This document shows, in pieces, positions 3,852 to 53,683 of a DNA stretch of 64,000 nt. Position numbers and translations under genes: made by a program. The notes beneath the pieces are model-generated. The model saw nothing but the letters and a program-made list of their open reading frames with translations, was not told where the DNA came from and did not search any database. Source of the DNA: Arenicola marina (lineage: Eukaryota > Annelida > Polychaeta > Arenicolidae); the NCBI GenBank assembly GCA_964019135.1, contig OZ025255.1, positions 21,677,708 to 21,741,707 on the forward strand. The letters are read 5' to 3'. How positions within the stretch are numbered: the first letter of the stretch is position 1; every line of letters starts with the position of its first letter.

Positions 3852-5214
3852 TTTTTTTGTTTTTTTTTTGTATAAACTTTATTTATTCAACGAGGTTACT
3901 GATAGCGAATACACATATCAACGGCCACCTCAACATGTAACAGAAATGTGGCTGTGGAGTTGAGGTTGAGTCATTAACAAGTACAGTTGATCAAATATGC
4001 AGAAAGTTCAAATTCAATACAGTGACAAAGATTTAGTGGCATACAACCCTGAAAATCAAATCGACAGCATAGCTCTTAGATAAACCGACCTGTTTCGGAA
4101 ATGAAAATTTGCACTGCTTTAAATAATTTAGTATTATCTTCAAGGTTAATGTTGGAGGAACCGAATAAGAGGAGATTGCAGAGACTAGCGAGTTGGTTCT
4201 TAGACGCAGCCGTAAGATCCAAGATAAAACCATATTCAACAACGAAGGCGATACCATTTAAAAGTTCATTGCGAAGATTGTTATAAATTGGACATTGTAG
4301 TAGATAGTGGATTGAATCTTCAGTTTTTTTAGTACAACCGTTTTGACAGTATTTGGTGGGGATGAAACCATAGTTGTACCTATGAGCGTTGAGGCCACTA
4401 AGGCCAAGACGCAGTCTGCAATGATTGACGGCTGCATAACCCGTAAACATGTCATACAGTGCATTGCGCGAATTGAAAAAACGTTCTTTATATGAAGATT
4501 TAAATGACATATATGACCCCGACTGCCTCAGTTCAGGCGGCAAGTTGTTCCATGCGCGAGCTGTGCGCCACAAGAAAGAGTTCATAACATAACTTTTTTT
4601 ACAGCTTAGAATGTATAAATCAGTACTTCTGCGGAGCACATGGTGAGAAATATCTGAGGTCTGGGGTGGAACGAGAGACGAGAGGTAACTCGGAGATAAA
4701 TTGTTAATCATCTTATATAGCAGACAGAGACTAAAATAAGTACGTCTTGTAGATAAGAGTTCAACACCAGTTTCTGCAATAAGTTTAGCATTAGGCGTGC
4801 TGGCGTATGCCCTCGTCGCCGTGAGTAATGCCTGGCGCTGCACGCCCTCTAGTTTTTCGCTTTGATACTTAGTAAGGTTGCTGTGAAAGACAGGGGTGGC
4901 GTATTCTAATAGTGGTCTAATATGCGTTTTATAAACGCATAACTTGGTTTTCCTATCAACTTGCTTAGGCATACGCTTCAATAGAGCAACAGACTTAGAA
5001 GATCTGCACACCATGTTGTTAACTTGTGTATCCCAGTTCATGTTTCTGGTGAGAGTGACACCAAGGGGGGTATGACTGTCTACGCGCCGTATTTTGGTTG
5101 AACCCAGGTACAAGTCTAGTTCATTAGGTCTCTGAAGCTTCTTACTTAAAGTCATATACACTGTTTTCGTCGGATTAAAACTTATTCTCCACTGGGAGGC
5201 CCAATTTCATAAAT
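3852..5214 (-). mobile_element. 5'-truncated non-LTR retrotransposon (LINE)
   Basis: The minus-strand insertion ends in a poly(A)-like tail (T-rich at 3852-3870) with an AATAAA-type signal just inside. It is flanked by a 12-bp direct repeat AGAATAGGGTTG at 3840-3851 and 5215-5226, a typical target-site duplication. Satellite sequence continues on both sides, so it landed inside the 167-bp array. Only the 3' part of the second ORF is present, as is common for abortive target-primed reverse transcription. The left edge of the segmental duplication (about 4282) falls inside this element. Confidence 0.9.
4076..5161 (-). pseudogene. LINE reverse transcriptase C-terminal fragment
   Basis: The 361-residue open frame matches the thumb and C-terminal part of a LINE ORF2. 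It contains HTPLGVTL followed by MNWDTQV, then KLCVYKTHIRPLLEYATPVF and EKLEGVQRQALLTATRAY, an arrangement known from Jockey/CR1/I-like clades. Near the end, CQNGC...DSIHYLLQCP gives a Cys/His cluster of the C-terminal zinc-knuckle type. The palm with the catalytic FADD box and the endonuclease are absent because the copy is 5'-truncated. The frame is uninterrupted, which suggests a fairly young insertion. The clade cannot be fixed by eye. Confidence 0.85.
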
Positions 5215-5310
5215 AGAATAGGGTTGCCTATGAAATGGCATAGAAAGGCCCCATATTAAGAGGAAATGTGTATCTGGTGACCAGGGAGATTGTTTCCTAC
5301 CATACGGCCG
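5215..5310. repeat. last partial 167-bp satellite unit
   Basis: After the LINE the satellite resumes with AGAATAGGGTTGCCTATGAA, AGAAAGGCCCC and GTATCTGGTGACCAGGGAGA, then decays into non-repeat sequence. This tail of the array is kept in the two other duplication copies. Confidence 0.8.
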
Positions 5311-5793
5311 TTCTAGTAGTACAGCCGTCGATCCTGTCCATAAACTCTTGGTAAACAGGTTGTGTTGATTTCGAGCCTCTGATTTCCACCCTATGCACAT
5401 CCCTATTATCGCCCATCAAAAAATGAACTATAATAAACCCTCGCGGCGTTGAGCGAAATAGGGTTACGGTACCCGTGTGTGTCTATGACCAGTCCAGACG
5501 TGACCAGTGCGTTTTTCTTTTAACAAAGTTAACTAATGCAAATTCTCTACATATTTAAATGAATACTCACTTAAAATGTCCCACCATGTCCACCACGTAA
5601 CTCTGTGCTGACAGTGAGAAGGAGAGTATCACTCCCGGAAGCACTTGCTGAAACCGTTTCAACGTTTTCAGTAAGTGGCAGATATTGTAACTGGAAGATC
5701 ACAACTGGCAGACTCCGGCGCGAGAGATACACACTTGAGTTGCTGAGTCATGTAGATAAGTGGAGCACCATAGCCGTGCTGACTGCTGTTTGC
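5311..5793. other. non-repetitive spacer, no gene seen
   Basis: This spacer lies between the satellite remnant and the large inverted-repeat insertion and is conserved in copies 2 and 3 (from about 21680 and 36277). No exon with credible splice borders was recognised. Confidence 0.5.
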
Positions 5794-8700
5794 GTAGCCC
5801 TGATACATGGCTGCTCATACGCGCTGGTACCCGACGCGCGACAGAGCCATGAAGTGCACCCCACATGAGGCCAGGAATTGGTGGGGGTGTTTGTGCATCT
5901 TGTAGGCTTTTGCCCTTATCAATAAATCGTCTACCTTCCAAAGCGATAAAAGGTAATTCCACAATTGTTGAACTTTTCTTTCGTTGTTTATATTCGCTGG
6001 GGGCATTTAAAAAAGTGTCATTACAGCAATAAACAACACATTTTCCTCGACCCTCGCTCCGCCATTTTGGCTTATCTTCCGTTGCGAGATTCTCAAAGTG
6101 ACGGAGCGAGTTTGCGTAAACTTGCTATTTAGTCCAATGTAATATGTTGTAGGTAAAACCTAGAAGGCGAGCGTAGACTTTGACTTTGTTGTGAAGCAAT
6201 TTTTTGGACCCCCACTGATGATAACTGGGCTAAACTGTTTCTCATAACCTTAGTTATGACTTGTTCTTTTTAAAGGTGAAGTTTTACATATTATGCTATT
6301 TTGTATATTTAATATCAAAGTTTTGGTACTGAAAAAGTAAATCTAGTAGTTTAGTAGTACATTTAATTTGTAGTCAAGTGACCTGCCCCTGACCGAATCT
6401 GTCATGATTTAGGTTCCTATTACCCTAGGTTGCTTTATTTGTGATCTGTAAAGTTTCGTTCGTGAGAAATTGCCATCTAAAAATAGGCTAAGGCAATGAA
6501 AAAATCAATTTCCATCCCCTGGTACATTGACTGACCGAAAATGTTTGTTCTCAAAGTTTAAAAGTGCCGTATTTTGTGGGGAGGGATCATTGCATGGTGT
6601 AGGTGGAGTGCCATGGTCAGATAGATGTGGCCGGCAATAGTTATGTTCCTGCCTTCCTGCTCCCTGATTTGGATTTGTAACTTCACGACTCAGCTCATGT
6701 AATGAGCTTGAGTAAAAATTATGCTCAAGATCTCTAGAATTTGAAACTGGACGACTGGTTGACTGGATTGTGTTACGGTTACCCAGTGTGAAGTAAAGTA
6801 CTGTGAATATTTTTTTATGTAAGGGTGGTCCGCCATTATTCAACGCAGCAAACCCAGCAAGAAGTAGTCTACGATAGACTACGACTACGATAGTCTACAA
6901 TATCCCAAATGACAAGCAGCTGTGATAGATCTAGAAGCTTTTAGTTTTGAAGTAGATGTGCTAAAGAAGGGGAGCACAACTTGTTTTGATTTGATAATTG
7001 GACTACTGCAAGAACTTACTACTTTTTAAATATAATGAAGAATGCTAATGGATAGATGTTCGAAGATCTTGATAACTTAATTATCTCTAGATGTAGGCTA
7101 ATCTTAACTGAAGGGTTTGTTATAAACCAAAAAAAATCTAGCTAATCTATATTAGAAATTAGTTATTTGACGGATCCTACACGGACGCCTAATGAACTTT
7201 CAAACAACCCGTTTGAATGAACACAGATGTTGCTTTGATTCGATAATTAGAGTAAGGTTACTTTTTAAAGTAAGCTTATATTAAAGAATGCCAATGGATA
7301 GATGTTCGAAGATCTTAATAGATCTAACTTATCTCTAGATGTAGACTAAGCTTAATTACATTTTTTGTTAAAAATCTGCCAAACAACAGTAATTTTTACC
7401 TCAATTTTTTTTCAAGCTTTGATCCAACTTAAATTTGCATGTGGAGTTGTTTCGCTGTTTTTGAATGCCAAATTTGCGTATAAGAACACAAGCCTAAGGC
7501 CTTAAGGTTCATAACAGACAATAAACACCTACCATATCGCTCACCAATTATCTGCCAATGGCAATGAGCAAAACATTTCAAATTCATGAATTGTCCGCCA
7601 CAAAAATGAAAACTGGTGCTGATTTGAAACGTCATAAACGTGTGTGAGCAAGTCGTTTACCGGTGCCACCGACAGGGGGCCCAAGCGCTAAATTATATGA
7701 GACAATAGAAGCGTCCGGAGCGCCACTTTTTCTTTGGCGGTGGCTGTTGACACTGCTTGTGGTCAAAGGTAACATTTCCTGTTTATGTTTATTTTGGTAC
7801 AGCCGTTGCAACGGCCAGCTCCACATGTAACTTTAAGCTTAGAAAGTCTTACATTAATTTCCAGTTAGATCTGCATTAGAAGTCTATTTTAATGAAAGGC
7901 TAAAAGACGGTTGTCCCAATCAAATGGTTCAAATAAGTAAATAAATAAGTGGTGAAAGTCATATGATTATAGCCTAAATGTGACGTTAGATCTAGCACCT
8001 TTTGGATCACCAACCTTGATCTATATTTTCAAAAGCTGAACTAGATTGTAGGCCTAACGCCAGTAACGGATCTAAATTTAGATCTGGATCTAGGCCTAAG
8101 CTTAGATCTAGAACATGTAATGCGTTAACGAAGCAATTTTTGCCTCAAATTGTTTAAAGCTTAGATCCAACTTAAACTAGATCTAGGGAACTTACATTAA
8201 CTTAACTTCCAGCTAGATCTATATTAGTCAATTAGAAGTCTATTGTCCTGAAAGGCTCAGTAAACATTAGCTAAAAGAGTCAAATGGTCCCCTGGTCAAG
8301 GTCAAAACTGTTCTATGCCCGACTATGGATCCTACACTGGCGCCTGATGAACTGTCAAATAGATCTAACTCCTAGGCTAGATCTAAATATTACACAAATA
8401 AGTTACCTTAGCACTTTAATGTATCACCAACCTTGATATAAATTGACAAAAGCTAGACTAGACGTGAAAATGTTGTAACATCAACGAAGCCTGGTAAACT
8501 GCTGACAAATCTGAAACTGTCGTCTGCGCGTTCGACTTGTGCTGCCACCAAGCGAATGCAGCCCGCGCGCGTGTTGAGCGCCCTCTGTCATGAGAGAGGA
8601 GGACACATGCATGTTGTCGCTATGATCAGCGTTTCATCAGTTGGAATTATGTTTTTGTATGTGAATTATCTACCAATTATGTATATTCTTTAGTGAATGT

Positions 8701-9117
8701 GCGGGTTTGGGCTGCATATAAGTTTTTGACAAAAAAATAAACATGAACTTTCCCGGAATGCATTTAAACGCATGCGCATGTCACACCACTGGGGGTCGAC
8801 TACCGGTTGATTTTTTTTCGCGCTTTACAGTATGGGATTGAGATACAGATTTTGTCAGTTTTTTACGTGTGTGTTATCTAAAGAGCTCACTACGCTCGCT
8901 ATAAAAGGCTGACATTGAATATGAAGCCACGAAAGAAAAGTTTAACACTTGTGGAATTACTTTTCATCACTTTTGGTGGTAGGGTATCTAGTGATAGGGG
9001 CAAATAGCTACATGATGCACATGCACCCCCACCAATTCCTGGTCTCATGCGGGTTGTACTTCATGACTCTCTCGCGCGTCGGGTACCAGCGCGTATGAGA
9101 GTCCTGTATCAGGGCTA
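5794..9117. mobile_element. hAT-like non-autonomous DNA transposon, 3.3 kb, only in copy 1
   Basis: Long terminal inverted repeats of about 205 bp (5794-6003 and 8908-9117, roughly 80% alike) begin with TAGCCCTGATAC. The flanks show an 8-bp target duplication, CTGTTTGC on the left (5786-5793) and CTTTTTGC on the right (9118-9125), with one mismatch. Copies 2 and 3 hold the empty site GACTGCTTTTTGCCTATG at 22141-22160 and 36738-36760, so the insertion boundaries are directly visible. The 8-bp duplication fits hAT. The interior is AT-rich, dense in TAGATCTAG-like words, and contains diverged internal direct repeats (about 7020-7110 against 7260-7350; 7838-8050 against 8180-8470). No transposase was recognised, so it is probably mobilised in trans. 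Confidence 0.85.
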
Positions 9118-9189
9118 CTTTTTGCCTATGTCGAGTTATCACCCTGTACAAAACAGTGGCCAGGGTGATTTAGCACTAGAGACATTTAT

Positions 9190-9902
9190 GAGCCTGTATC
9201 TGTGCTCAGGCTTGGTTAGACTTGTCTGCTAGCTCTGGGTGCGAGGATGGGCCTGTAGCTATGGTCAGGGCTGGTACGACTTGTCTGCTAGCTCTGGGTG
9301 CGAGGATGAGCCTGTAGCTGTGGTCAGGGCTGGTACGACTTGTCTGCTGGCTCTGGGTGCGAGGATGAGCCTGTACCTGTGGTCAGGGCTGGTACGACTT
9401 GTCTGCTAGCTCTGGGTGCGAGGATGAGCCTGTAGCTGTGGTCAGGGCTGGTACGACTTGTCTGCTAGCTATGGATGCGAGGATGAGCCTGTAGCTGTGG
9501 TCAGGGCTGGTACGACTTGTCTGCTAGCTCTGGGTGCGAGGATGAGCCTGTAGCTGTGGTCATGACTGGTACGACTTGTCTGCTAGCTCTGGGTGCGAGG
9601 ATGAGCCTGTAGCTGTGGTCAGGGCTGGTACGATTTGTCTGCTAGCTCTAGGTGCGAGGATGAGCCTGTAGCTGTGGTCATGACTGGTACGACTTGTCTG
9701 CTAGCTCTGGGTGCGAGGATGAGCCTGTAGCTGTGGTCAGGGCTGGTACGACTTGTCTGCTAGCTCTGGGTGCGAGGATGAGCCTGTAGCTGTGGTCAGG
9801 GCTGGTACGACTTGTCTGCTAGCTCTGGGTGCGAGGATGAGCCTGTAGCTGTGGTCAGGGTTGGTACGACTTGTCTGCTAGCTCTGGATGCTGGGTGCGA
9901 GG
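9190..9902. repeat. 59-bp satellite, left block, copy 1
   Basis: About twelve 59-bp units with the core GAGCCTGTAGCTGTGGTCAG, GGCTGGTACGACTTGTCTGC and TAGCTCTGGGTGCGAGGAT. Point variants recur (TCATGACTGG for TCAGGGCTGG, GCTGGC for GCTAGC), which mark subfamilies. A Mutator-like MITE interrupts the array at its right end. The period is not a multiple of three and no coding is supported. Confidence 0.92.
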
Positions 9903-10632
9903 TTGGCGCAAGTGCCCCCCAGGCAAGCCCGCTTCTCTAGGGGCACAACGGTAACAATGTTAAAATCCTTCGACGTTAGTAGGGAATCGACTGTAGCTTT
10001 TACTATAATGTGGGCGCGTACAATAATAGTGCTTACGTATTCTATATACCTTGTTCTATCTTCTGACATCAAGAAAGTGTGTCGACACTAGGTTGTTTCG
10101 GTTATATTTTCGCGAAGAAATGTTGGAGCACACAACTGTTCCCGACCAGCCATCCGCCATATTTGTTTTTGGCGGATGCCGCTACCTGTGAATGCGACTT
10201 GGTTCCTCCTTTCCGTTAGCATATGACTCTCCGCTAGAGGGCCTTGTCAGTCGCTCACTTTGAACTTAAGGACAACAGCAGCGCCCTCTTTCACAGGTCA
10301 TTGACTGTTACAAAGTTTGGGACCCAGGCTACAAATCGTTCAAATGGTGGCGGGATTCGCCAGGTGGCGCTGCATATGCATGGCCGTTGGTAGGGAAAAG
10401 TCGTATGCTCCAACATTTGTTCGCAAAAATATGACTGCAACTATATAGTGTTGACACTTTTTCTTGATGTCAGAAGATAGAACAAGGTATATAGAATACG
10501 TAAGCACTATTATTGTACGCGCCCACATTATAATAAAAGCTACAGCCGATTCCCTACTAACGTCGAAGGATTTTAACATTGTTACCGTTGCGCCCCTAGA
10601 GAAGCGGGCTTGCCTGGGGGCACTTGCGCCAA
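9903..10632. mobile_element. Mutator-like MITE, 730 bp, copy 1
   Basis: Terminal inverted repeats of about 233 bp start TTGGCGCAAGTGCCCCC and are about 94% alike. A 9-bp target duplication GGTGCGAGG lies at 9894-9902 and 10633-10641, cut from the 59-bp satellite itself. Long TIRs with 9-bp duplications are characteristic of Mutator-like elements. The interior of about 260 bp has no transposase, so this is a non-autonomous derivative. It sits at the same place in all three copies, so it predates the segmental duplication. Confidence 0.88.
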
Positions 10633-12233
10633 GGTGCGAGGATGAGCCTGTAGCTGTGGTCAGGGCTGGTACGATATGTCTGTTGGCTCTTGGTGCGAGG
10701 ATGAGCCTGTAGCTATGGTCAGGGCTGGTACGACTTGTCTGCTAGCTCTTGGTGCGAGGATGAGCCTGTAGCTGTGGTCAGGGCTGGTACGACTTGTCTG
10801 CTGGCTCTGGGTGCGAGGATGAGCCTGTAGCTGTGGTCAGGGCTGGTACGACTTGTCTGCTAGCTCTGGGTGCGAGGATGAGCCTGTAGCTCTGGTCAGG
10901 GCTGGTACGACATGTCTGCTAGCTCTGGGTGCGAGGATGGGCTTGTGGCTGTGGTCAGGGCTGGTACGATATGTCTGTTGGCTCTTGGTGCGAGGATGAG
11001 CCTGTAGCTGTGGTCAGGGCTGGTACGACTTGTCTGCTGGCTCTGGGTGCGAGGATGAGCCTGTAGCTGTGGTCAGGGCTGGTACGACTTGTCTGCTAGC
11101 TCTGGGTGCGAGGATGAGGCTGTAGCTGTGGTCAGGGCTGGTACGACTTGTCTGCTAGCTCTGGGTGCGAGGATGAGCCTGTAGCTATGGTCAGGGCTGG
11201 TACGACTTGTCTGCTAGCTCTGGGTGCGAGGATGAGCCTGTAGCTGTGGTCAGGGCTGGTACGACTTGTCTGCTAGCTCTGGGTGCGAGGATGAGCCTGT
11301 AGCTGTGGTCAGGGCTGGTACGACATGTCTGCTAGCTCTGGGTGCTAGGATGGGCCTGCGGCTGTGGTCAGGGCTGGTACGACTTGTCTGCTAGCTCTGG
11401 GTGCGAGGATGAGCCTGTAGCTGTGGTCAGGGCTGGTACGACATGTCTGCTGGCTCTGGGTGCGAGGATGGGCCTGCGGCTGTGGTCAGGGCTGGTACGA
11501 TATGTCTGTTGGCTCTGGGTGCGAGGATGGGCCTGTAGCTCTGGTCAGGGCTGGTACGACTTGTCTGCTAGCTCTGGGTGCGAGGATGAGCCTGTAGCTG
11601 TGGTCAGGGCTGGTACGACTTGTCTGCTAGCTCTGGGTGCGAGGATGAGCCTGTAGCTATGGTCAGGGCTGGTACGACTTGTCTGCTAGCTCTGGGTGCG
11701 AGGATGAGCCTGTAGCTGTGGTCAGGGCTGGTACGACTTGTCTGCTAGCTCTGGGTGCGAGGATGAGCCTGTAGCTATGGTCAGGGCTGGTACGACTTGT
11801 CTGCTAGCTCTGGGTGCGAGGATGAGCCTGTAGCTATGGTCAGGGCTGGTACGACTTGTCTGCTAGCTCTGGGTGCGAGGATGAGCCTGTAGCTGTGGTC
11901 AGGGCTGGTACGACTTGTCTGCTAGCTCTGGGTGCGAGGATGAGCCTGTAGCTCTGGTCAGGGCTGGTACGACATGTCTGCTAGCTCTGGGTGCGAGGAT
12001 GAGCCTGTAGCTATGGTCAGGGCTGGTACGACTTGTCTGCTAGCTCTGGGTGCGAGGATGAGCCTGTAGCTATGGTCAGGGCTGGTACGACTTGTCTGCT
12101 AGCTCTGGGTGCGAGGATGAGCCTGTAGCTGTGGTCAGGGCTGGTACGACATGTCTGCTGGCTCTGGGTGCGAGGATGGGCCTGCGGCTGTGGTCAGGGC
12201 TGGTACGATATGTCTGCTGGCTCTGGGTGCGAG
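10633..12233. repeat. 59-bp satellite, right block, copy 1
   Basis: About 27 further 59-bp units follow the MITE. Here GACATGTCTGC, GATATGTCTG and GGGCCTGCGGCTGTGG variants are common and partly periodic, implying unit-block duplication. The array ends abruptly at GAGTATGAACCACGCATG. Confidence 0.92.
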
Positions 12234-12539
12234 TATGAACCACGCATGTACAATGAATTTATGAGCGATATATCGCTTTACTTCGGGTGGGGACTTCCTA
12301 GCCAGGATGACAGATCCACAGGGCGTGGGTTGACGCTATTGCTCCTGCCTTTCGGACATGCTTCATCCAACCCAAATTCTTTGTCCCGGAAGGTTTTTTT
12401 GTCCGCTTTAGCCTTCATGTGTACACATATAGAATAAACCTTCAACTTTTCATTTCACCGGGAAATAGATCTGAAATGAATATATGCAGATATATAGGCC
12501 CATCCTGTTTGAACAAACGGTGACAAGGAACCACCTTAA
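12234..12539. other. non-repetitive spacer, no gene seen
   Basis: This short segment is conserved in copies 2 and 3 and contains AT-rich stretches and the phrase TTTTCATTTCACCGGGAAAT. No exon with credible splice borders was seen. Confidence 0.45.
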
Positions 12540-12750
12540 TAACAAATTATTGTAGTGTGCTCTGCCAGTGGCCGGTGTGGGGTTTGAATCCCACCCGTGG
12601 AAATGTCAATGTTTGTGTTGTAGAAAGATCCCATGACTTTTTCGCAAAGAGCAGGGGGCTCCTCATTTCCATTGTCGCGATAGGACATGGAGCCTTGGAA
12701 CACGTTACTTTTATGACTCGCATGCGGAAGTCAACATTTATAATAGATAT
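12540..12750 (+). mobile_element. tRNA-related SINE-like fragment, copy 1
   Basis: TAGTGTGCTCTGCCAGTGG followed by GTGGGGTTTGAATCCCAC resembles the second half of an A box and a T-arm with B box: a five-base stem GTGGG/CCCAC around GTTTGAAT. This is the usual look of a tRNA-derived SINE head. A full cloverleaf is not present and no 3' tail or flanking duplication was identified, so the right limit is approximate. It is retained in copies 2 (about 25741) and 3 (about 40338). Confidence 0.4.
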
Positions 12751-12755
12751 TGTGA

Positions 12756-12918
12756 CAGGGGCGGATCTAGGGGGGGTACGGGGGTTGCAACCCCCCCCCC
12801 TGGAAACCTGAACATACACTGTTAAAGTCGACTTCTCCGAGAACCCCCCCCCCCCCCCCCACGGGCGCAAGTTTTCAGAGAGCTCCCCCCCCACCCTTGG
12901 CAAATAGATCCGCCCCTG
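12756..12918. mobile_element. short hAT-type MITE, copy 1
   Basis: The element starts CAGGGGCGGATCTAG and ends TAGATCCGCCCCTG, with an 8-bp flank TATTGTGA (12748-12755) repeated as AATTGTGA (12919-12926). The body is dominated by G and C homopolymers around AACATACACTGTTAAAGTC. The CAGGGGCGG terminus and 8-bp duplication fit hAT. Orthologues are at 25957-26118 and 40554-40717, differing mainly in C-run length. Confidence 0.8.
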
Positions 12919-12949
12919 AATTGTGACACGTATTAGATATTGATATAGG

Positions 12950-13015
12950 TATTGCTAACTCGCATTGGGTAGGATATTGCTAACTCGCATTATACATTGC
13001 TAACTCGCAAGAGTT
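12950..13015. repeat. short tandem repeat around GCTAACTCGCA
   Basis: Three occurrences of ATTGCTAACTCGCA are spaced about 28-32 bp apart. The block is identical in copies 2 and 3. Confidence 0.6.
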
Positions 13016-13144
13016 GACTACGTTGTTCAGAATCTATTCGGGTCGAGACAATGAGTCAACACTGTATACCTTTTTTTCCTTTTTCGTTTGAAACGTGAGG
13101 ATTATGTTTGCGCGTGGGTAATCCCCAGCAGCCAAGCCCGACCG

Positions 13145-13492
13145 AGTGATTGGCTGGGCCACTCGCCAACCAAGGGTGACGTCACCGGATAGCGAGCGAG
13201 CGAAACCAGTGAGGGCGAGTTCTAAGCGAGGCAAGGCTGGCTGGGCGACCACTTGTACTGAAGTTTTATATTGCCTTCGCACACAGAGGCGTGCTCGTTT
13301 GCGGGCTGGGTGGGTGAAGGAGGGGGTTGTACAGAGTAGGGGAGGGAGACACCGTAACGTGGTCGGCGATCCGATGGGGCCATCAACACGCCGCAAAGAC
13401 GCCATTTTGAGTCACCGCAGTTGGCTGAGCTGGTTGATTCTGAGTTAAACTTGCAAGCACAGGTCCGCGTTAGTAATTAAGAGGTGAGTGTT
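13145..13492 (+). promoter_or_regulatory. CpG-rich promoter-like block with a splice donor, copy 1
   Basis: An inverted CCAAT box (GATTGGCTG at about 13147) is followed by a palindromic CRE, GTGACGTCAC at about 13177. The stretch then becomes CpG-rich, carries a YY1-like CGCCATTTTGAG (about 13400) and ends in a strong splice donor AAGAG|GTGAGT at about 13481. A second YY1-like AAAATGGCG lies at 13642. Together these resemble a TATA-less promoter and non-coding first exon. If real, its intron would span the 12-bp and 45-bp arrays and could splice to the coding exon at 17063. This linkage is inference; the TATA box near 16700 is an alternative promoter. Confidence 0.4.
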
Positions 13493-13674
13493 TCCGTTGG
13501 GTTCGGTTTGGAAGTGTTATTTTTTCCTTGCTCACTTCTCTGCAGGATATGGTGGGGCGAGGTTTCGGTCGTAAACTGAGTGTGACCTACAGCCTGACAC
13601 GGCGAAGCCTTGAGATAGCGGACGTAAACTGGAAGTAAACAAAATGGCGTTTTTTCCGAGACGTGCAATTGTGG

Positions 13675-14846: not shown

Positions 14847-15730
14847 CGACATCAGTCACATCAGGAGGTGACGACGGTCACTTTACGGGTGTGGCATCAG
14901 TCACATTAGGTGACGACGGTCGCTTTACCGGTGTGACATCAGTCACATCAGGAGGTGACGACGGTCCCTTTACGGGTGTGGCATCAGTCACATTAGGTGA
15001 CGACGGTCGCTTTACGGGTGTGACATCAGTCACATTAGGAGGTGACGACGGTCACTGTACGGATGTGATATCAGCCACATTTGGAGTTGACGGCGGTCAC
15101 TTTACGGGTGTGACATCAGTCACATTAGGAGGTGACGATGGTCACTTTACGGATGTGACATCAGCCACATTAGGAGTTGACGATGGTCAATTTACGGGTG
15201 TGACATCAGTCACATTAGGACGTGACGACGGTCACTTTACGGGTGTGACATCTGTCTCATTAAGAGGTGACGACGGTCACTTTAAGGGTGTGGCATCAGT
15301 CACATTAGGAGGTGACGACGGTCACTTTACGGGTGTGACATCAGCCACATTAGGGGGTGACGACGGTCACTTTACGGGTGTGACATCAGTCACATTAGGA
15401 GGTGACGACGGTCACTCTACGGGTGTGACATCAGCCACATTAGGAGGTGACGACGGTCACTTTACGGGTGTGACATCAGTCACATTAGGAGGTGACGACG
15501 GTCACTTTACGGGTGTGACGTCAGCCACATTAGGAGGTGATGACGGTCACTTTACGGGTGTGACACCAGCCACATTAGGAGTTGACGACGGTCACTTTAC
15601 CGGTGTGACATCAGTCACATTAGGAGGTGACGACGGTCAATTTACGGGTGTGACATCAGTCACATTAGGAGGTGACGACGGGCACTTTAAGGGTGTGACA
15701 TCAGTCACATTAGGAAGTGACGACGACGGG
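14847..15730. repeat. 45-bp dyad-rich minisatellite, copy 1 (about 20 units)
   Basis: The unit combines GGTGACGACGGTCACTTTAC with GGGTGTGACATCAGTCACAT and TAGGA. Each unit contains two dyads of the form GTGAC-N4-GTCAC about 22-23 bp apart, so the 45-mer is a diverged dimer. The plus frame encodes a 15-residue repeat GDDGHFTGVTSVTLG without stops, because the period is divisible by three. No splice context or codon evidence supports translation. Past the array the sequence becomes non-repetitive. Confidence 0.9.
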
Positions 15731-16685: not shown

Positions 16686-16698
16686 ACCCAGGCTTTAC

Positions 16699-25951: not shown

Positions 25952-25956
25952 TGTGA

Positions 25957-31335: not shown

Positions 31336-31350
31336 GGACCCAGGCTTTAC

Positions 31351-40548: not shown

Positions 40549-40553
40549 TGTGA

Positions 40554-42795: not shown

Positions 42796-44977
42796 GCGTC
42801 AGTCACTTTAAGGATGTGACATCAGTCACATAGGGCTATAAAGTCTCGTTCGCTTAGACTTCCGGTTTACTCATTTTGGGGACAAACAAACGAAGCACGT
42901 GTTCGGAACGAGTTTAGAATCTCTGCGCACACTGGTATCCTGACTATCTGTGACGTAGGCGTGACGTGTATGTTACGCAAAGAGAGAGACTGGGAACCAG
43001 ACTACCTGCGCAAAAGCCAGGCGCCAAGGGGTGGGTATATTGCGGAAGACCTAGCGCTATGATTAAAAATATTTAAGAAATATAGCTTCACAAAACGGAT
43101 AGATGACATATTTTTTGTTCGTTTGCGCCATCACAATGACGAATATTTGTTACGACGGGACAATACGACTGAGAAACTAACGTTTCTTTGCATTTCCTGC
43201 GAAAACGAGACATTATGACGTCACACGGATTCTCTCCGGTGACAACGTTGGGGCAACGCTTCAAACAGAAAACTTACAAAAATTAAGAAACTTGGTCTTT
43301 TCGTGATCCAAAAGTGATACGAAAACATCCAACTGGTCTTATTTTATCTTTACCATGTGGTTTAATGACGCACCCGTGTGTTGTTACTCCATGTACTGCA
43401 TAATTTGACAGCGGAATGGTTAAGTCGATCACTTGCTCTCGCCATTTTTGTTACCGCGGAGGCACGCGAAACCCTGTGACGTCACTCGCTGTTTGGTGAA
43501 CTTGCGAAAGCCCGGGTGCAAGGCTAAATTTAGAACGTTATTTTTAGCTTTCGAGTGTTTTGAAGGCGGATTTTTCCTTGTATATTCCCAAAGTTCTGCG
43601 CTTCATCGCCTCCAAATATTTTAACGTATATCTCTCATAGCTATGTTTAGTGAAATGGTACTCATAGTCTTTAGAATATACCTGGAAAGAAAGTGACTTA
43701 TAGCTGCCTATACTTCAACATGGAGCACGTGTGTTTGTTTGTCCCCAAAACTGAAGTCTCGCAGCCCGATCGCGAGAACTGTATAGCCCTATTAGGAGGT
43801 GACGACAGTCAATTTACGGGTGTGAAATTTGTCACATTAGGAGGTGACGACGGTCACTTTACGGGTGTGACATCAGCCACATCAGGAGGTGACGACGGTC
43901 ACTTTACGGGTGTGGCATCAGTCACATTAGGAGGTGACGACGGTCACTGTACGGATGTGACATCAGCCACATTTGGAGGTGACGGCGGTCACTTTACGGG
44001 TGTGACATCAGTCACATTAGGAGGTGACGACGGCCACTTTACGGATGTGACATCAGCCACATTAGGAGTTGACGATGGTCAATTTACGGGTGTGACATCA
44101 GTCACATTAGGACGTGACGACGGTCACTTTACGGGTGTGACATCTGTCTCATTAGGAGGTGATGACGGTCACTTTACGGGTGTGGCATCAGCCACATTAG
44201 GGGGTGACGACGGTCAATTTACGGGTGTGACATCAGTCACATTAGGACGTGACGACGGTCACTTTACGGGTGTGACGTCAGCCACATTAGGAGGTGATGA
44301 CGGTCACTTTACGGGTGTGACACCAGCCACATTAGGAGGTGACGACGGTCACTTTACGGGTGTGACGTCAGCCACATTAGGAGGTGACGACGGTCACTTT
44401 ACGGGTGTGACACCAGCCACATTAGGAGTTGACGACGGTCACTTTACCGGTGTGACATCAGTCACATTAGGAGGTGACGACGGTCAATTTACGGGTGTGA
44501 CATCAGTCACATTAGGAGGTGACGACGGGCACTTTAAGGGTGTGACATCAGTCACATTAGGAGGTGACGACGGTCACTTTACGGGTGTGACATCAGCCAC
44601 ATTTGGAGGTGACGGCGGTCACTTTACGGGTGTGACATCAGTCACATTAGGAGGTGACGACGGCCACTTGACGGATGTGACATCAGCCACATTAGGAGTT
44701 GACGATGGTCAATTTACGGGTGTGACATCAGTCACATTAGGACGTGACGACGGTCACTTTACGGGTGTGACATCTGTCTCATTAGGAGGTGATGACGGTC
44801 ACTTTACGGGTGTGACACCAGCCACATTAGGAGTTGACGACGGTCACTTTACCGGTGTGACATCAGTCACATTAGGAGGTGACGACGGTAAATTTACGGG
44901 TGTGACATGAGTCACATTAGGAGGTGACGACGGGCACTTTAAGGGTGTGACATCAGTCACATTAGAAAGTGACGACG
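42796..44977. repeat. 45-bp dyad-rich minisatellite, copy 3, split by a MITE
   Basis: The array has the same number and order of units as copy 2. Only a few substitutions separate them, for example CAATTTACG for CAAGTTACG in the first unit after the MITE. Confidence 0.9.
42832..43790. mobile_element. MITE with AGGGCTATA ends, 959 bp, copy 3
   Basis: Counterpart of 28233-29191 at the same insertion point in the 45-bp array. Confidence 0.8.
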
Positions 44978-45529
44978 ACGGGTCGAGACTGCCGTTGGGA
45001 TCAATGGAGTTTAGCAGAGTCAAGGACATACACCAATCTCGCAACAATAGTAACATTAATATTTTGTTGCATTGTGATTGATGCCATAGTTGAAGGGTAG
45101 TCATGTAATGAACGATGAAACTTAGTTAAATTTCGTATTTGCTCGTTGGATGGGAAGCGTTTATATCTCACATATGCTATTTGCTATGGCTTTACCCCAG
45201 CTTAAGGTTGTGTATTTTATGGAACTACATCTGCTTATGAGTTAAAAAATACATTAATCCGTGAATGGCAATGTAGGTGAATAAGAAATATGGCCACTGC
45301 GTGACCAGAACAAGTATTTTTCTTATGTAAATATATGGCGAGTCAGCATTGGCAAGCCCACACTTTGATTTGTTTAATTATGGGTTATATTTGGAATGCT
45401 ATTGTAGGGGAACCGTAGTGGGGAGGGCGTCGGGGAGACAGCGTGTCTGGTAGCTAAGTAAGGCACCCGCGGGGAGAGGGGTCCAGCGGGATAGGTCGCC
45501 CAGTGCGAGGATCGGGGTGGGGTTGAGTG
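44978..45529. other. AT-rich spacer, no gene seen, copy 3
   Basis: Counterpart of 15731-16279. Confidence 0.5.
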
Positions 45530-45936
45530 ACCGCTGGATGTGGCCAGGGTGGTCGCCGAGCGTGGGATGGGGTAGAGCCGGCCCCAACCACTTGAGAGGG
45601 AGACCCCCACAACATCCGCGGGGTGGGGTGGCACACTAACCGGATATGACACCAGGCCAGGGGAGGGGCGGTGCGGACCGGGATGTGGCCAGGGTACTCC
45701 CGAGGGGTGGGGGGCAGAAGCTCTGACGGTGCCAGGGTGTCCCAGGGGGTGGGGCGGGCCCTATACAGGTTAGATAGATCGGGATGTGGCCAGGGTGCTC
45801 CCAGGGGGGTGAGGCGGGCCCTATGAAGGTTAGATAGAGCGGGATGTGGCCAGGGTACTCCCAGGGGTGGGGCGGGCCCTATGAAGGTTAGATAGAGCGG
45901 CATGTGGCCAGGGTACACCCAAGGGAGGGGGGGGGG
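45530..45936. repeat. G-rich 60-bp minisatellite, copy 3
   Basis: Counterpart of 16280-16685. Confidence 0.8.
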
Positions 45937-45950
45937 GACCCAGGCTTTAC

Positions 45951-45960
45951 TTATATAAAG
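45951..45960 (+). promoter_or_regulatory. TATA box, copy 3
   Basis: TTATATAAAG in the same position as in the other copies. Confidence 0.45.
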
Positions 45961-46324
45961 AGGGGAAGACCGATGGGATGGAAAAAAGAGATGATCAGAG
46001 ACTGACTGACTGCATGGATTTATAAAAAGAAATAAACTCAAGAAATGGAATACATTGTTGAATCTCTATGTTAAAGTGGTGTCGCGAACGAAAGTGTCCG
46101 GAGTCAAGAACCTCACACTATTTATGAAACCCCAAGCTATAGCACATTGCTGTGTGAAGAAATCTATATCTGTTGCTCAGTCCAAACATCCAATGAATGT
46201 CAATACCTACATTGTATTGTATTGCAAACTTGCAGTATTTATCTTATTTTATAGCTTTGTCTATTTCGCTACCTGCTATTAAGATAAATCAGGAGATTTC
46301 GTTTTGAATTGCAGCTACTTAAAT

Positions 46325-46801
46325 ATGGATAAGGACGCAGCTGGTGTATCCTCCTTGGTGAAGAATGAGGCAGCCATGGCCCAGGAGTTTCCGGCGCCAG
46401 CGGGGATGTACGCCTCCCAGCCACCCCCACCGGGGATGTACCCGTCCCAGCCACCACCCCCGGCGGGAATGCACCTCGAGCTGCAACCCCCGGCGTACAG
46501 TGAGGCCATGATGGGCGTTCCAGGTCACGCGATGCAGCAGGGGCCTCAGCGACCGCACGTGCAGGCGGCCTCCACCCAAAGACCCAACTACCCCCGAGGC
46601 GTCCCGCCTCATCCCCAGGTGGTGGTGCCCGGCACGGTTCAACCGGGAAACCGGATGGCCGGCCAGACTGTGGTGGTCATGCGGCGGACGGATTTGGAAG
46701 AAGTGGCCTGGCGCAACAGAAACACGAGGATGACCAGCTGGGGCATTATCATCGGCGTCAAGGTCATCGCCATTATCATCATCGTCATCACCTTCCACTA
46801 G
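46325..46801 (+). CDS. proline-rich PPxY tail-anchored membrane protein, copy 3
   Basis: Predicted 158-residue protein with the same residues as copy 2: two decapeptide repeats, the PPAYSE motif, the basic stretch RNRNTR and the C-terminal hydrophobic anchor. The upstream TATA box, the splice acceptor at 46314 and the post-stop donor are all kept. Identity with copy 2 is expected if the two copies arose very recently or are being homogenised. Whether all three genes are expressed cannot be told from sequence. Confidence 0.75.
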   Translation: MDKDAAGVSSLVKNEAAMAQEFPAPAGMYASQPPPPGMYPSQPPPPAGMHLELQPPAYSEAMMGVPGHAMQQGPQRPHVQAASTQRPNYPRGVPPHPQVVVPGTVQPGNRMAGQTVVVMRRTDLEEVAWRNRNTRMTSWGIIIGVKVIAIIIIVITFH

Positions 46802-48419
46802 ACTCTCACTGCGGTAAGTCGGTGCACCATTCGCTACGTGGCGCTGACGCTCAGTGGCGCTGACGCACCACTCCCTAGGTGGCGCTGGCACACCGCTCGC
46901 CGCTGATGAAAACCAAGGAAAGCACTCGCTGAAACCAACGAACCGCTCGCAAGATGGAACCACATAACCGATTCTAGGAAGAAGCCACCCAGTGTCTCCC
47001 CGATAAAGGCAAAACATAAGACGTTGAACTGTTCCTCAGAGTAAGCCAATGCACGAGTCGCCAGATGGAGGCACGCCAGGACTGGCCAGTACCAGCGTCC
47101 TGTCTGATATACTGGCCGGGGGAACCAATTCATTGGATTAAGTGAGGACTACCGAAAACAAATCGACGCATTCCCTCCTGTCCACGCTCTTGCGTCTCTA
47201 AAAACAATTTCCTGAGTTTTTAAAACTAGAGATTGTCTTTAAAATGGTAATCTTCGGCGGTGACACTGCTTTCAATCTGAAACATTCTTGAGCATGTGAA
47301 ACAAAATTCTCTGAAGACCACTATGTGTGTCTTTCTATGACTAATGACATGGCGTCAGCAACGGCCTCCAACATATTGTATGTACGTGTCCGTGTCTCTG
47401 ATATGTCTTCGAATCAAGGTGATGCACTTGCTCGTGCCTGAGGTCGAAGAATTGTGTACGACCCTCTGTCAATACTCATATTTGTGTTGGATATCAATGC
47501 TGCATTATTTGTTATTCTTATGTTTTATTCGTTATTCGAATATAGTAGGTGATAACAGCCCCCCCCCCCCCCCATAACAGCTCCGGCAACAGGACTCCTC
47601 TCTGACCTTGACCTTAACCACTGACGCGATACGATCTTGTGCATTGATTTGTCCTCCTCCTCGAAGTGACTGACGAATGAGGGACATTTTTGCAGTCCTT
47701 CGGCATATCGGGATTTGATGTTCATTGTGAAAACGTGAACTGCATATACAGATAGATATACCAATCTTTGCCCTGCTTACTCCCTGCTTTCGCGCTCCGA
47801 CACGGTGCACTTTATTCGTAGTGAACCACGGAACTTTTTGGAACAATGCAGTTAACAACCGGTGCGCACAAAAGAATATTTCATCTATATTTGTCTTTTT
47901 TTGTATCGAAATGCCAACATAGGTTAATTTTACTCCTGAAATGATCATATTTGGGTTTGATACCATTCAGGAAAACATGGTGATTAAACTGAGATTTCAT
48001 CAGTGGAAAATATGTAATGGTTTAACTTAGTTAATTCATGTTCCTGATAGTTTGTATAATAAGCAGATAAGATATTACTCAAGATGGTCTATCAATAATC
48101 ATGCATTGGTGGTTTAGCAAATTAGCGATTACTGGGTCTATGGTTAGTAGTTCTTTTATGTGTTTGTATATATGTGGGTGAAGGAGGGGGGGGGGGGTCG
48201 CGGGGGTGTCTGGGAGCACTCCCCATTTCAACAACCGACCACGACTCGATTCTCGTTCCAACGTGGGAAGCCGACCCGGGCCATTGTCGGTTGTCATTGC
48301 TGTTCATTGTTCATGATTATTACTCGCTTTTAATACCATGCATATTGTTCACTTCACAGTTATAAACTATTATGTCATTTTATGGCGTGCTTTTTTATAC
48401 ACAACATGTGACATTTCGG
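46802..48419 (+). other. 3' untranslated or intronic region, copy 3
   Basis: Counterpart of 17610-19225, with longer C and G runs at about 47560 and 48186. No coding exon was recognised. Confidence 0.4.
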
Positions 48420-48446
48420 AATAAAGCTGATTTATTTTGAATAAAA
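48420..48446 (+). terminator. poly(A) signals, copy 3
   Basis: Two AATAAA hexamers are followed by a GT-rich stretch, as in the other copies. Confidence 0.5.
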
Positions 48447-48561
48447 AAATGGTTTTGTTTTTGTAGGCAACATATATTCTCAAGTCGGGGGTCATGTTAT
48501 GCAAAGACCGAAAGTGGTAAAAGCCTCCTGAATATATAACCAATCAATCATGTTATGCAAA

Positions 48562-50426
48562 TGACTTCACCTCATTTTCGACCGGGGAAATGTTTAATGT
48601 CGTTTGCGAAACTCACGAGCTACGGAAAGCGGAGGTGGGACTAATTCACCATATAGTCAGGAATGGGGTTGCCGCCTGTGCCAATGGAGAGTCAGAGAGC
48701 AATTTGTTACAATTTGGCACATACAGTTCACGCGATCGGGTCGCATGACTTCAGATTTGGTCTCACAAAACACGTGCTCCATGTTGAAGCAGCTGTAAGT
48801 CAATTTCTTTCCAGGTTTATTGTAAGGACTATGGGTCTCATTTCACTAAACATGGCTATAGAAGGCATGCGATATAATATTTGGAGGCGATGAACCGCGG
48901 AACTTTTGAAATCTGCAAGGAAAATTCTTTTTCAAAACACTCGGAGGCCAAAAATAGCGTTGTAAATTTGGCCCTGCGTCTGGGCTTTCGCTGGTTCCCC
49001 GAACAGTGACGTCACAGAGTTCCACGGGCCACCGCGGTAATAAAGATGACGAGAGCAAGTTGTCGATGTAACCCTTTCCGCTATCAAACTGTACAGTGCA
49101 TGGCATAAGAACCAGAGAGCACATCGATGCGTCATTAATTAAACCACATGGAAAAGGTAAAACAAGACCATTTGGATGTTTTCGTACACATTTTTGTTCA
49201 TGACAAGACAAAGTTTCTTCATTCTTTGTAAGTTTACAAATTCGTGTGACGTCATAATGCTTTGTTTTCATAGGAAATACAAACAAATGCTAGTTCCTCC
49301 GCCGTGTTGTCCCGTCTATCCATTTTGTGCAGCTATATTTCTTAAATACTCTTAATCCTATAGCTGGGCGATCCGAAATGGACCCACCCCTCTGCGCCTT
49401 GCTCTTGCGCATGTAGTCTGGTTCCCTGTCTCTCTCTTTGCGTAACTAAATATGTCACACCTCCGTCGCGATAGTCAGGATACCAGTGTGCGCAGAGATT
49501 CTAAACACCTTCCAAACACGTGCTTTCTTTGTTTGTCCCCAAAATAGGTAAACCGGAAGTCTTGGCGAACGAGCCTTTCCAGCAAGCACACAACGTTCGC
49601 ACAACGTTGGTCTTTGGTTGTAATCACGTCGTCTCGCAGTTAACATTAGGACAACGTTGTTGTAACGTTTGTCGCAAACTAATTTTTTCTAGCCGATATT
49701 CCATCGAAAAACAACATTTGCCATTTGTGATGACTCATGAAAATTGGCTGCGTGTAGCAGTTGTTATAAATACAAAATGGTTAGAGGTCAGGGGTGGATG
49801 TTTTGACAACGTTAGGACGACTTTACCAGAAAAATCAGTCATCATGAAAGCAAGATGTAATTGATTGTCTGTTGACAGTCACGCTTCCATTAATTGATTT
49901 GTCATATACACATTTTGTTCTCACTGAGGGCACAATTTGAATACTGGAATGAATGTTTTCTACATACAACGTTTCTGCCACGTGGAACGTTTTTCGAAGT
50001 GTCCTGGTTGCCTGGCCCCTGCTTTTGTATGCGCAGTGGTACCCGCTCAATGACCCGGTAAGCATACGAAAGCATAATGCTGCAGCGCCGCCTATTGGAG
50101 AAGATTAATACCGAAGATTTTTTTTTAATTTAGCCGCGTCATCATTGGACCGTTGATCCACTGCGTGCCCAAGAATTTCGGTTTTGTGTCGCCTGCGGCA
50201 GCTACATCTTGTGCAAGGTATATTTTTACCCATAAGCTTGATCAAATAGCCCTATAGGTTGGGAAAATGAACATTGCAATTTGCAAGACGTTAATGCTGT
50301 CATACATGATCATAAATGTATTAGGCTCACTCAGACGTCAGTGGCAGGGTGTACAACACAGGCACCGTAAAGCGACGGAGGGGGGGGGGGAGGCTTTGTA
50401 TGCCCCTTACCCTTACCCCCCCCTCC
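48562..50426. other. copy 3-specific replacement segment
   Basis: Copies 1 and 2 have about 60 bp between ATGTTATGCAAA and the hAT-like CAGTGGCGGATCC. Copy 3 has about 1.9 kb here instead. The segment contains a degraded member of the AGGGCTATA MITE family, an AACGTTG-rich stretch at about 49590-49680, and otherwise unrecognised DNA. It could be an insertion with loss of the original 60 bp, a gene-conversion tract from elsewhere, or the ancestral arrangement. No gene was recognised in it. Confidence 0.7.
48717..49578. mobile_element. degraded MITE of the AGGGCTATA family
   Basis: The left part shows ACAGTTCACGCGAT, CACGTGCTCCATGTTGAAG and TCTCATTTCACTAAACATGG. The right part shows GTTTGTCCCCAAAATAGGTA and GGCGAACGAG, all colinear with 59690-60646. 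The outermost AGGGCTATA ends are missing or mutated, and the divergence is higher than between the other copies, so it is older. Confidence 0.7.
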
Positions 50427-50992
50427 CAGTGGGGATCCAGCGGGGGGGCTACTGCGGCTATAGCCCCCCCCCCCCCGCCTGGTCAAGCCGCAGAAGCCCC
50501 CCCACCGACAGGTTTAGCTCCCGAGAATAAAGCAGCCTATCGCTGTTCACGAGCAGCAACCTAATGCTGGAGAAGGACCAGTGCCCCCCTCCCCCCCCCC
50601 CCCACCGCTTCCGCCGCTTATGCACTGTAATTCCGAAATTCAAGCCCCCCAGGGACGGATCTAGGGGGGGGGGGGGGTTACGGGGTTGCAACCCCCCCCC
50701 CCCCCCTTGGGAATCTGAACATACACTGTTAAAGTCCGCGCATCCCTCCCCCCCCCCCCCCCCCCCTTCCTGGGCGCAAGTTTTTCAGGGAGCACCTTCC
50801 ACTCCCCCGGTCGGAAGTTTTCAGAGGGCAACCCCCCCTTGGCAAATTCCGCGATCCGCCCCTGTCCCCACCCCCCCCCCCCCCTAAAGTTGGATTAACC
50901 CCTGTAGTATGCCCTGTAATCGCGAAATGCAAGCCTCCCCACCCTCTAAAGTCTGAATCAGCCCCTGTGACCCCCCACCCCCCCGCCCCCAA
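50427..50992. mobile_element. nested C-rich hAT-type MITEs, copy 3
   Basis: Counterpart of 19417-19955. It begins CAGTGGGGATCCAG, missing two terminal bases relative to the others, and C runs are the longest of the three copies. Confidence 0.65.
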
Positions 50993-51672
50993 GTGAGTAA
51001 CTGGAATTTCATTGAGGTATTGTCCTTCCCCGTCGTTAGTTATCTTTGTTATGTACTGATTAAAGCTTTTATTTCATGTAGACTCGAAAGAAGACGGCAG
51101 ACACTGTTGCTCAGTCAGCCGAGAACTCTGAGGACAGTGGCTAAAACATTCCATCAGGCTGTCTATGCTAATAATTAATAAATCTTACGATTATCGATTT
51201 TCTTGTTGTACTGGTTGTGCGAATGTTAGCAAAATGTTAGCAATATTATCTGAAAAAAAGCATATATTTTCACGTGGTCGCAACGTTGGGACCAACACAA
51301 AAATAATGTTGTGTCGACGTTGTCGTGCCGTTAACCTGTTTCCTGGGTTTATAGCCCTTTTTAGTCCCCCCCCCACCCCCACTTCTCACCTCCGGGCCAT
51401 GAAAGGCCATATAGTCACAAGTAGGTAGGCTGTTCATATGCGGAGAGCTTGCTACATGCACTCTGGCAAACACAGATTTTTTATCGTCAACCATCTTATA
51501 AATTGTATGCGTTGCTCGTAAGGGCTCAGCCCGAGTTATAACATGTCTATCTATGCGTTGCTTCCCCGGGTTATAATTGATACTGTGTATCTATGCAGTG
51601 CACTGTTTGACTTACTCAAGGTGAGTCCACTCGCTCCGCTCGCGGGGCGTCTAGCGTTCGTAGTAATAAGCG

Positions 51673-53683
51673 AATGAAATAACAGTATGACAGTATTTTG
51701 TTTTATACGTTAAATAGTAGCAGGCAGAAGGTAGACATTGAGCAGAAATAATATAGATAATTATATTGACATAAATTGAGACCGGGAGCTACTGAATAAC
51801 GGGACATACATGTTAAAGATATTTAAACACTTTCTGTGCAATTATTGTGCATCCAGTACAGAATACTCAAATTGCGGCTAAAGCACGCTAATAAATGAAT
51901 ATCAGTCCAGTAAAACTAAGGCCCAAGCTCACAGATTGATTCAGTAAAAAAAAAGGGGGGCTGTTTCCCGTCCGTTGTTCGTCATTTAACGTAGTACTAC
52001 TACCTTCAGTGGATAAAATCTGCCTGACGTCCTGGTTGGATCTATAGAATTGACGTGTAGTCCGCTTAACTATCCTGTAAAATTGGATACTGCTGTGAAT
52101 GATGTTAAGAGCAGCGTGTTATCAGTGGTTATAGGCATGGTTCCCAGGGCAGAGTTCCCCGGGCAGAGTTCGTTCTCTTGCTACTGATGGGAAGGCGCGA
52201 GACAGTACGGGATTTGTTTGCTTTGATGACGGTTCGGGCGATAATACGTTGGGAAAAATATTACTGTTGGCACCAAGCCAGGTAGCCCGCCGCACCCGAA
52301 AGCGATATTATGCGCGGGATAAGGTGATAATCACCCAGCGGTTGTGTTGACACATGCGATAGCTTTGACACATCTAAAAGCGGCGGCTGGATATTAATAG
52401 GTTCAAGGCGGTTGCTGATGCCAATGGGCTCTTGCATGCCGCGGCATAGTGGGACAGACAGCTTCATTTTATTAGTATAGAAGTCAAGGTCATCTGAGAA
52501 TTGGAAATATATAGTCGTTTGTGTATCAATCAGATGGTTGGTTGGTTGGTTATTCAGGACGCTTTAACCACTTTCGGTCATATCGCTATAGACTTATATG
52601 TTAGAGAACAAGGGTTACGTAAAGCCTAGGTCTTGCGTAATATTGTAAGATCGGACCCCTGGGTTAGGTTGAGGTTTCGAATCTCATGTGTGACATGTTC
52701 GGTTCGGCCAGGGCGTGTATAAAGACTTCTGGTCTTCGCATTCACAAAGGAAGTCGCTTGCGTATTTCCATCAAGCCTTTATTCATAGCGGTTGCACATC
52801 TTGTTGTGTTGTCTGAGATTCTTCTTTAGTTGAATTCTTGGTTTCTGGACTCCCTCCTTAGTTCCTCCACTAGGTGTCTGGACTCTCGGATCCGTGCCCC
52901 TTATATACCCACACGCTCCTACACCCCTGAGAGTGTACTCTCTTATCAGGAATTTGGGAGGAATTTGGTGGAAAGATGTTTTCACTCTCTTTCTCTAGTT
53001 TGCGCGTCTGGATTTCGGTTCAGACTGGCTGGCGCCGAGTGTCACCATTGTCACCTTATCTCCCTTTGTTTTTAGTTCCATGACGCAAACATCACGTCCG
53101 CCAACCTCCCTTCCGGAGCTATATAAGGACCTAGCGCTTCCGGGTCGATGGATCTAGAACGTTCTATAAAATTGTATCTATACTGATAAAATGAAGCTCT
53201 CTGTCCCACTATGCCGCGGCATTCAAGAGCGGGTGCTTATCCCGCATGGTGACCATATCTGCGGCGGGCTACCTGGCTTGGTGCCAACAGCAATAATATT
53301 TTTCCCAACGCATTATCGCCCGAACCGTCATCAAAACAAACAAATCCCGTACTGTCTCGCGTCCACAACTTCCCATCAGTAGCACATTTTGTCCACTGAA
53401 GGTTCGTTAAATGACGAACAACGGGAGGGAAACAGCCCCTTTTTTTACTCAATCAGCCCCTTTTTTTCACTCAATCAATGTATGAGCTTGGGCCTTAGTT
53501 TTACTGGACTGATATTTGTTTATTAGCGTGCTTTAGCCGCAATTTGAGTATTCAGTAGCTCCCGGTCTCAATTTATGTCAATAAATCGATATTATTTCGG
53601 CCCAATGTCTACCTTCTGCCTGCTACTATTTGACGTATAAAACAAAATACGGTCCTACTGTTATTTCTTTCGTTTATTTGTAG
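51673..53683. mobile_element. large inverted-repeat element, about 2 kb
   Basis: A left arm (about 51673-52470) and a right arm (about 53183-53683) are reverse complements over nearly 500 bp. Shared blocks include TATTTTGTTTTATACGT, GTAGCAGGCAGAAGGTAGAC, TGAGACCGGGAGCTACTGAA, GACAGTACGGGATTTGTTTG, CCAAGCCAGGTAGCCCGCCG and CCGCGGCATAGTGGGACAGA. The left arm holds extra segments of about 70 and 170 bp absent from the right. The spacer includes an LTR-like relic. The outer 24 bp of the left arm lie inside the segmental duplication. It may be a foldback-type DNA transposon. No transposase or clear target duplication was found. Confidence 0.75.
52687..53094 (-). mobile_element. LTR-like relic (possible solo LTR)
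   Basis: On the minus strand the segment starts TGATGTTTGC and ends in CACACA. It has a TATA-like TATATAAGG about 200 bp in and an AATAAA signal downstream, the general order of an LTR promoter and poly(A) site. A T-arm-like GAGATTCGAAACCTC directly follows its 3' end, which could be a primer-binding region. No internal coding region accompanies it, so if it is an LTR it is a fossil. The family and age cannot be judged. Confidence 0.3.

Follow-up and report, generated by a model that had tools for sequence, protein, structure and literature searches.

A tandem triplication in the Arenicola marina assembly with a probable two-step origin: near-homology-free duplication followed by unequal crossover

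At the Bar locus of Drosophila, two tandem copies become three by unequal exchange. One report presents Bar as the first demonstration of unequal crossover and describes, for the CUP1 arrays of Saccharomyces cerevisiae, a founding duplication with very little or no homology and unequal crossovers that change array copy number (PMC4232551). By its account, there are five CUP1 repeat types among 101 isolates, and the gene product is a copper-binding metallothionein (PMC4232551). Sdic of Drosophila melanogaster is described as a young, lineage-specific tandem family with a reported effect on sperm competition (PMC7475035). Here we describe an array of three tandem units, each carrying a proline-rich open frame, in the annelid Arenicola marina (assembly GCA_964019135.1, contig OZ025255.1, positions 21,677,708–21,741,707; this whole stretch of 64,000 nucleotides is referred to as the window). 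We propose, with a probability of roughly 0.8, that the array originated in two steps: a duplication almost free of homology at its joint, and then an unequal crossover in the resulting two-copy array.

The array resembles CUP1, as portrayed in that report, in its low-homology founding joint and in unequal crossover as the route of copy-number change; it differs in that many isolates and a known gene role are available there, whereas here there is one assembly of a different locus with no function assigned. With Bar it shares a tandem duplication that reached three copies, but the exchange is read here from a sequence mosaic and there from crosses. Like Sdic, in the features described for that family, it is a young, lineage-specific tandem family; the effect on sperm competition belongs to Sdic, however, and the open frame described here is known from sequence alone. 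The mechanism itself is textbook knowledge, and the value of the locus lies in illustration and in its being young and testable. Both copy-number steps, the non-homologous founding and the unequal exchange, are legible in a single sequence, and transposons provide markers that are independent of substitutions. The array suggests an ordinary route of copy-number gain at an early stage.

Self-BLAST of the window recovered three direct, head-to-tail units over 4282–51696 in the assembled sequence (Table 1). This bears out the tandem triplication claimed in an initial annotation of the same DNA, which had proposed self-alignment as a check. Units 2 and 3 differ by 26 mismatches in 13315 aligned columns, with 12 more in the 1277 columns of the next block, and units 1 and 2 align in four blocks at 96.9–99.4% identity. 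Alignments between units end at 4282 on the left and at 51696 on the right. Four differences account for the spread in unit size: unit 1 carries a 3.3-kb transposon, units 2 and 3 share another of 0.96 kb, a 1.86-kb segment is confined to unit 3, and satellite copy number varies.

The two inner junctions share one 23-mer (GACAGTATATAAGTTGGACATTG). It occurs twice in the window with up to 3 mismatches allowed (shuffle mean of 0.00, n = 100), and exact matches in the whole assembly (867 Mb and 762 contigs, with the window on contig C8) also number 2, both in the array; a reversed control gave 0. The junctions had been placed at 20651 and 35249 and called identical to each other, and both statements hold, with the coordinates correct to within one base. 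The left break lies within a minus-strand element that we judged by eye to be a long interspersed nuclear element (LINE), flanked by a 12-bp target duplication (AGAATAGGGTTG) at 3840–3851 and 5215–5226, within a 167-bp satellite of 11 copies (1958–3851). Of this LINE-like element, 924 bp recur in units 2 and 3 at 99.5% identity; in unit 1 its reading frame is unbroken through 4282, whereas in units 2 and 3 it passes out of the element on reaching the joint. The frame has no match in Pfam, which we queried with ten chosen frames (eight of the 163 listed, minus stop codons, and two trimmed to start at the ATG of the open frame). The right break falls about 48 bp inside a different dispersed element, which has 226 matching pieces in the genome (40 of 2329 candidates scored) and runs across the position equivalent to 51696 in 6 of the 6 other copies aligned.

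Each outer edge falls within a repeat that extends beyond the array, which identifies these edges as original and the inner joint as new. The original ends overlap at the joint by 1 bp (T), whereas the initial annotation had given two or three bases and had placed the joint inside a LINE; the LINE accounts for the left break only. What stands of that proposal is a joint with nearly no homology. Since two unrelated repeats are fused with an overlap of 1 bp, homologous recombination is not the origin of the first joint, and the sequence supports a tandem segmental duplication founded by non-homologous joining.

The middle unit bears a clear mark of the second step in its mosaic structure. We compared the three units at 7553 non-satellite sites, aligning segments separately and dropping columns gapped in any unit; satellite arrays and the block 9115–9891 were excluded because their alignment register is uncertain. 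Over all sites, unit 2 agrees with unit 3 at 41, with unit 1 at 29, and units 1 and 3 agree with each other at 3. Up to 32992 (5360 sites compared), 40 sites pair unit 2 with unit 3, 5 pair it with unit 1 and 3 pair units 1 and 3. The part up to 32242 holds 37 sites in favour of unit 3 as the partner of unit 2 and 2 in favour of unit 1. From 33190 onwards (1996 compared), 24 sites pair unit 2 with unit 1 and 1 pairs it with unit 3. The best single switch improves the log-likelihood by 27.7, compared with a permutation maximum of 15.3 (reached in 0 of 10000 permutations), and the result persists when a cluster of 11 sites is reduced to one (gain of 25.5; 0 of 10000) and when neighbours less than 10 bp apart are merged (gain of 20.7; 0 of 10000). 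Unit 2 is thus a one-switch mosaic and its two joints are identical, as expected from the unequal exchange that had been claimed for the second copy-number step, and together these observations support triplication by unequal crossover (non-allelic homologous recombination).

Divergence gives the relative ages of the two steps. Before the exchange, copies A and B, the predecessors of units 1 and 3, would have differed by about 0.75% in the left part (40 of 5360 sites, cluster included) and 1.2% in the right part (24 of 1996). Within the exchanged halves, the left comparison (units 2 and 3, 11595 columns) yields 12 mismatches and 3 gap openings, and the right comparison (units 1 and 2, 2059 columns) yields 1 mismatch and 6 gap openings. 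Because mismatches within the exchanged halves are few, the exchange appears, by substitutions, several times younger than the founding duplication.

Three structural markers agree with the same switch. Within the array, the 3.3-kb transposon is present in unit 1 only, and unit 2 keeps the empty site at about 22150. The 0.96-kb transposon is identical in units 2 and 3 and absent from unit 1. Where unit 3 has the 1.86-kb segment, units 1 and 2 both have one and the same 47-bp sequence. An unequal crossover would turn A-B into A, B/A, B, the arrangement observed. The other genome copies of the 0.96-kb transposon are 96–100% identical to it (40 of 2705 candidates scored), with one extra 302-bp piece at 89%. 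We considered whether unit 1 had instead lost 1.4 kb and dropped this idea, as the sequence is a young transposon with near-identical copies and inverted ends; it more likely inserted into a common ancestor of the left-hand portions of units 2 and 3. The remainder of the 1.4 kb is satellite. The other copies of the 1.86-kb segment are only 68–80% identical over stretches of more than 500 bp (40 of 3339 candidates scored), and a single 246-bp piece is 87% identical. Given this low identity we discarded a fresh insertion into unit 3, and an old sequence lost from the lineage of unit 1 is likelier, although not proven. A genome search around the 47-bp filler matched the dispersed element to its right and returned nothing that polarizes the filler.

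In the first of the proposed steps, breaks in the LINE-like element and in the second dispersed element, roughly 12–16 kb apart, would have been joined with a 1-bp overlap, possibly by end joining or by microhomology-primed replication, to give two copies, A and B. These may then have acquired transposons of their own, lost segments and diverged by about 1% in substitutions. In the second step, B on one chromatid or homologue would have paired out of register with A on another; a crossover, whose most likely place is the equivalent of 32242–33190, would then have produced the three-copy array A-(B/A)-B. The sequence shows the mosaic directly, together with the ends and the joint; we infer the order of events, the repair pathway of the first step, and that the crossover took place in a cell and not in the assembly.

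Several observations weigh against this two-step origin. The 948-bp exchange interval is mixed (three sites unit-3-like, three unit-1-like and two pairing units 1 and 3), with no clean switch. Divergence in the left part is uneven, with 11 of the 40 differences falling within 361 bp at 31882–32242 (permutation P = 0.004, for a window length that was picked post hoc), and when this cluster is counted once the best switch moves to 30518–30740 (25 to 0, then 6 to 29). For this reason the safest placement of the exchange is 30518–33190; our preference for 32242–33190 rests on the identity of units 2 and 3 across the 477-nt open frame and on their common 60-bp repeat state. The site of the exchange is therefore less certain than its existence. 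This uncertainty of place and the 6 gap openings in the right exchanged half slightly lower our confidence in the two-step origin. An assembly error at the second step would, moreover, leave a mosaic and identical joints just like those observed: with two real copies per haplotype, an assembler that re-walked B into A, or moved between haplotypes, would create a false middle unit, and the few differences in the copied halves could be allelic in an animal of low heterozygosity. A false walk within a single haplotype, however, predicts sequencing error only, not the 12 mismatches and 3 gaps per 11.6 kb and the 1 and 6 per 2 kb observed, and in the searches made neither the open frame nor the exact joint occurs on any other of the 762 contigs. 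Because of these post-exchange differences and the lack of stray contigs bearing the frame or the joint, we regard an assembly error as unlikely, and it would still require a real two-copy array.

Identical joints are also compatible with a triplication in one replicative step, by template switching or rolling amplification, in which gene conversion later made unit 2 a mosaic, and the mixed interval and the clustered differences indicate that some conversion may have occurred. The cluster adjoins the exchange interval and is itself a possible conversion tract. To generate the whole pattern, however, conversion tracts of about 11.6 kb and 2 kb, one on either side, would need to have met in one interval and to have carried the transposon insertion and the 1.86-kb difference as well, all of which a single crossover does at once. 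We consider one-step triplication very improbable, and retain founding duplication followed by unequal crossover as the likely history.

Table 1 Features of the array and its edges (window coordinates)
Feature	Position	Strand	Description
Unit 1	4282–20650	+	16.4 kb; starts at the original left end of the segment; LINE-like frame unbroken leftward of 4282
Unit 2	20651–35247	+	14.6 kb; recombinant middle unit; left part unit-3-like, right part unit-1-like
Unit 3	35248–51696	+	16.4 kb; right edge is the original right end; dispersed element continues past 51696
Inner junction 1	20644–20666	+	Shared base at 20651; joint searched for in window and assembly
Inner junction 2	35241–35263	+	Same sequence as junction 1; shared base at 35248
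Most likely exchange interval (unit 2)	32242–33190		Corresponds to 17650–18603 in unit 1 and 46842–47794 in unit 3
LINE-like element, 5′-truncated	3852–5214	−	Sits in 167-bp satellite; cut by left break of unit
Dispersed element (miniature inverted-repeat transposable element-like by eye)	51649–52482	+	About 840 bp; cut by right break; units 1 and 2 carry no more than its first ~50 bp at their ends
Transposon in unit 1	5794–9118		3.3 kb; ~200-bp imperfect inverted ends GTAGCCCTGATACA; 7-bp target duplication TGTTTGC/TTTTTGC (one mismatch)
0.96-kb terminal-inverted-repeat transposon	28233–29191		Inserted in 45-bp satellite; same site in unit 3, 42832–43790
1.86-kb segment	48562–50424		Unit 3 only; same 47 bp instead at 19368–19414 (unit 1) and 33956–34002 (unit 2)
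Solo-long terminal repeat (LTR)-like element	30804–31517	+	By eye, bounded by TG..CA and flanked by 4-bp CTAT; TATA motif at 31352; ~200 bp upstream of open frame
Open frame, unit 1	17073–17609	+	178 aa; two extra 10-aa repeats
Open frame, unit 2	31725–32201	+	158 aa
Open frame, unit 3	46325–46801	+	158 aa; identical to unit 2 across all 477 nt

The open frame was found only in the three units of the array in searches of the assembly. Its N-terminal part is rich in proline and contains 10-residue repeats; there is also a PPAY motif, and a single hydrophobic stretch lies towards the C terminus (19-residue mean hydropathy of 2.71 from residue 139, long enough for a membrane span). An acceptor-like TTGCAG precedes the frame, as read in unit 2. 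An alignment-free structure model predicts a helix at residues 121–157, with mean predicted local distance difference test (pLDDT) values of 91 and 96 over the last two blocks; the overall mean pLDDT is 61 and the model is confident in the last helix only. These features would suit a tail-anchored membrane protein. The 158-aa form matched no Pfam family up to E = 1, and the 178-aa form matched two families below the cut-off (E = 0.033 and 0.23). Five PDB matches were found up to E = 1, the best of which are to methyl-coenzyme M reductase gamma subunits (E = 9.7 × 10−5 and 5.1 × 10−4) and the others at E of at least 0.027; we judged them to be compositional.

Evidence on whether the frame is a gene is divided. 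The GC content at the three codon positions (0.65, 0.49 and 0.77) counts for coding, as do the in-frame change in repeat number and the intact frames. Counting against it, 68 of 1000 shuffles contain a frame of at least 172 codons, and the antisense strand holds a longer frame of 238 codons, a length reached in 7 of 1000 shuffles. The comparison of unit 1 with units 2 and 3 gave no sign of purifying selection: all 8 substitutions in the open frame are nonsynonymous (a probability of 0.14 under no selection), compared with 8 of 11 in the antisense frame. A small membrane-protein gene had been claimed; a frame with a predicted helix of membrane length at its C terminus is present in every unit, and its status as a protein-coding gene is plausible but unproven.

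In each unit the open frame is preceded by a solo-LTR-like element with a TATA motif (at 16151–16865 in unit 1 and 45403–46117 in unit 3), a possible promoter. The units could accordingly be viewed as a young, lineage-restricted membrane-protein family, perhaps driven by the solo LTR, with copies multiplying and diverging in protein sequence under positive selection, as the 8 of 8 nonsynonymous substitutions and the in-frame change of 20 repeat residues might indicate. We regard this as improbable. The 8 substitutions are part of the 11-difference cluster described above, and because the cluster extends past the stop codon, a conversion tract or an allelic difference explains it better than selection on a protein.

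The last ~118 bp of the solo-LTR-like element, the only part used in the genome search, have dispersed relatives. A 0.65-kb piece comprising the end of this element and its flank (30979–31633) recurs on the same chromosome at a distance of about 660 kb (C8:21.045 Mb; L047, about 4274–4926). The copy is about 99% identical and has sharp edges, shows 7 substitutions relative to unit 1 (by eye, gaps aside) and sides with unit 1 at two sites at which units 2 and 3 differ from unit 1. The 0.96-kb transposon family has further members in the window: an inverted relative (79–86% identical) at 48721–49578, inside the segment present only in unit 3, and another (91% identical) at 59690–60648 in the right flank.

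Searches with Rfam and with ARAGORN (bacterial code) gave no match within the window. In the right flank, an open frame of 202 aa lies on the minus strand at 55990–56595; it contains a 21-bp minisatellite and, judged by eye, a single hydrophobic stretch, and it has no Pfam match. Elsewhere in the assembly, contig C762 (L067) carries mitochondrial genes, including COX1 with 13 TGA codons, in the order nad3-nad2-cox1-cox2 by eye, as would suit a mollusc or annelid. Further along the right flank, 61478–63712 on the minus strand encodes collagen-like repeats; the frame at 63142–63648 matches the Pfam family Collagen (E = 2 × 10−14), the only one of the ten queried frames to pass the Pfam cut-off, and the remainder was recognized by eye.

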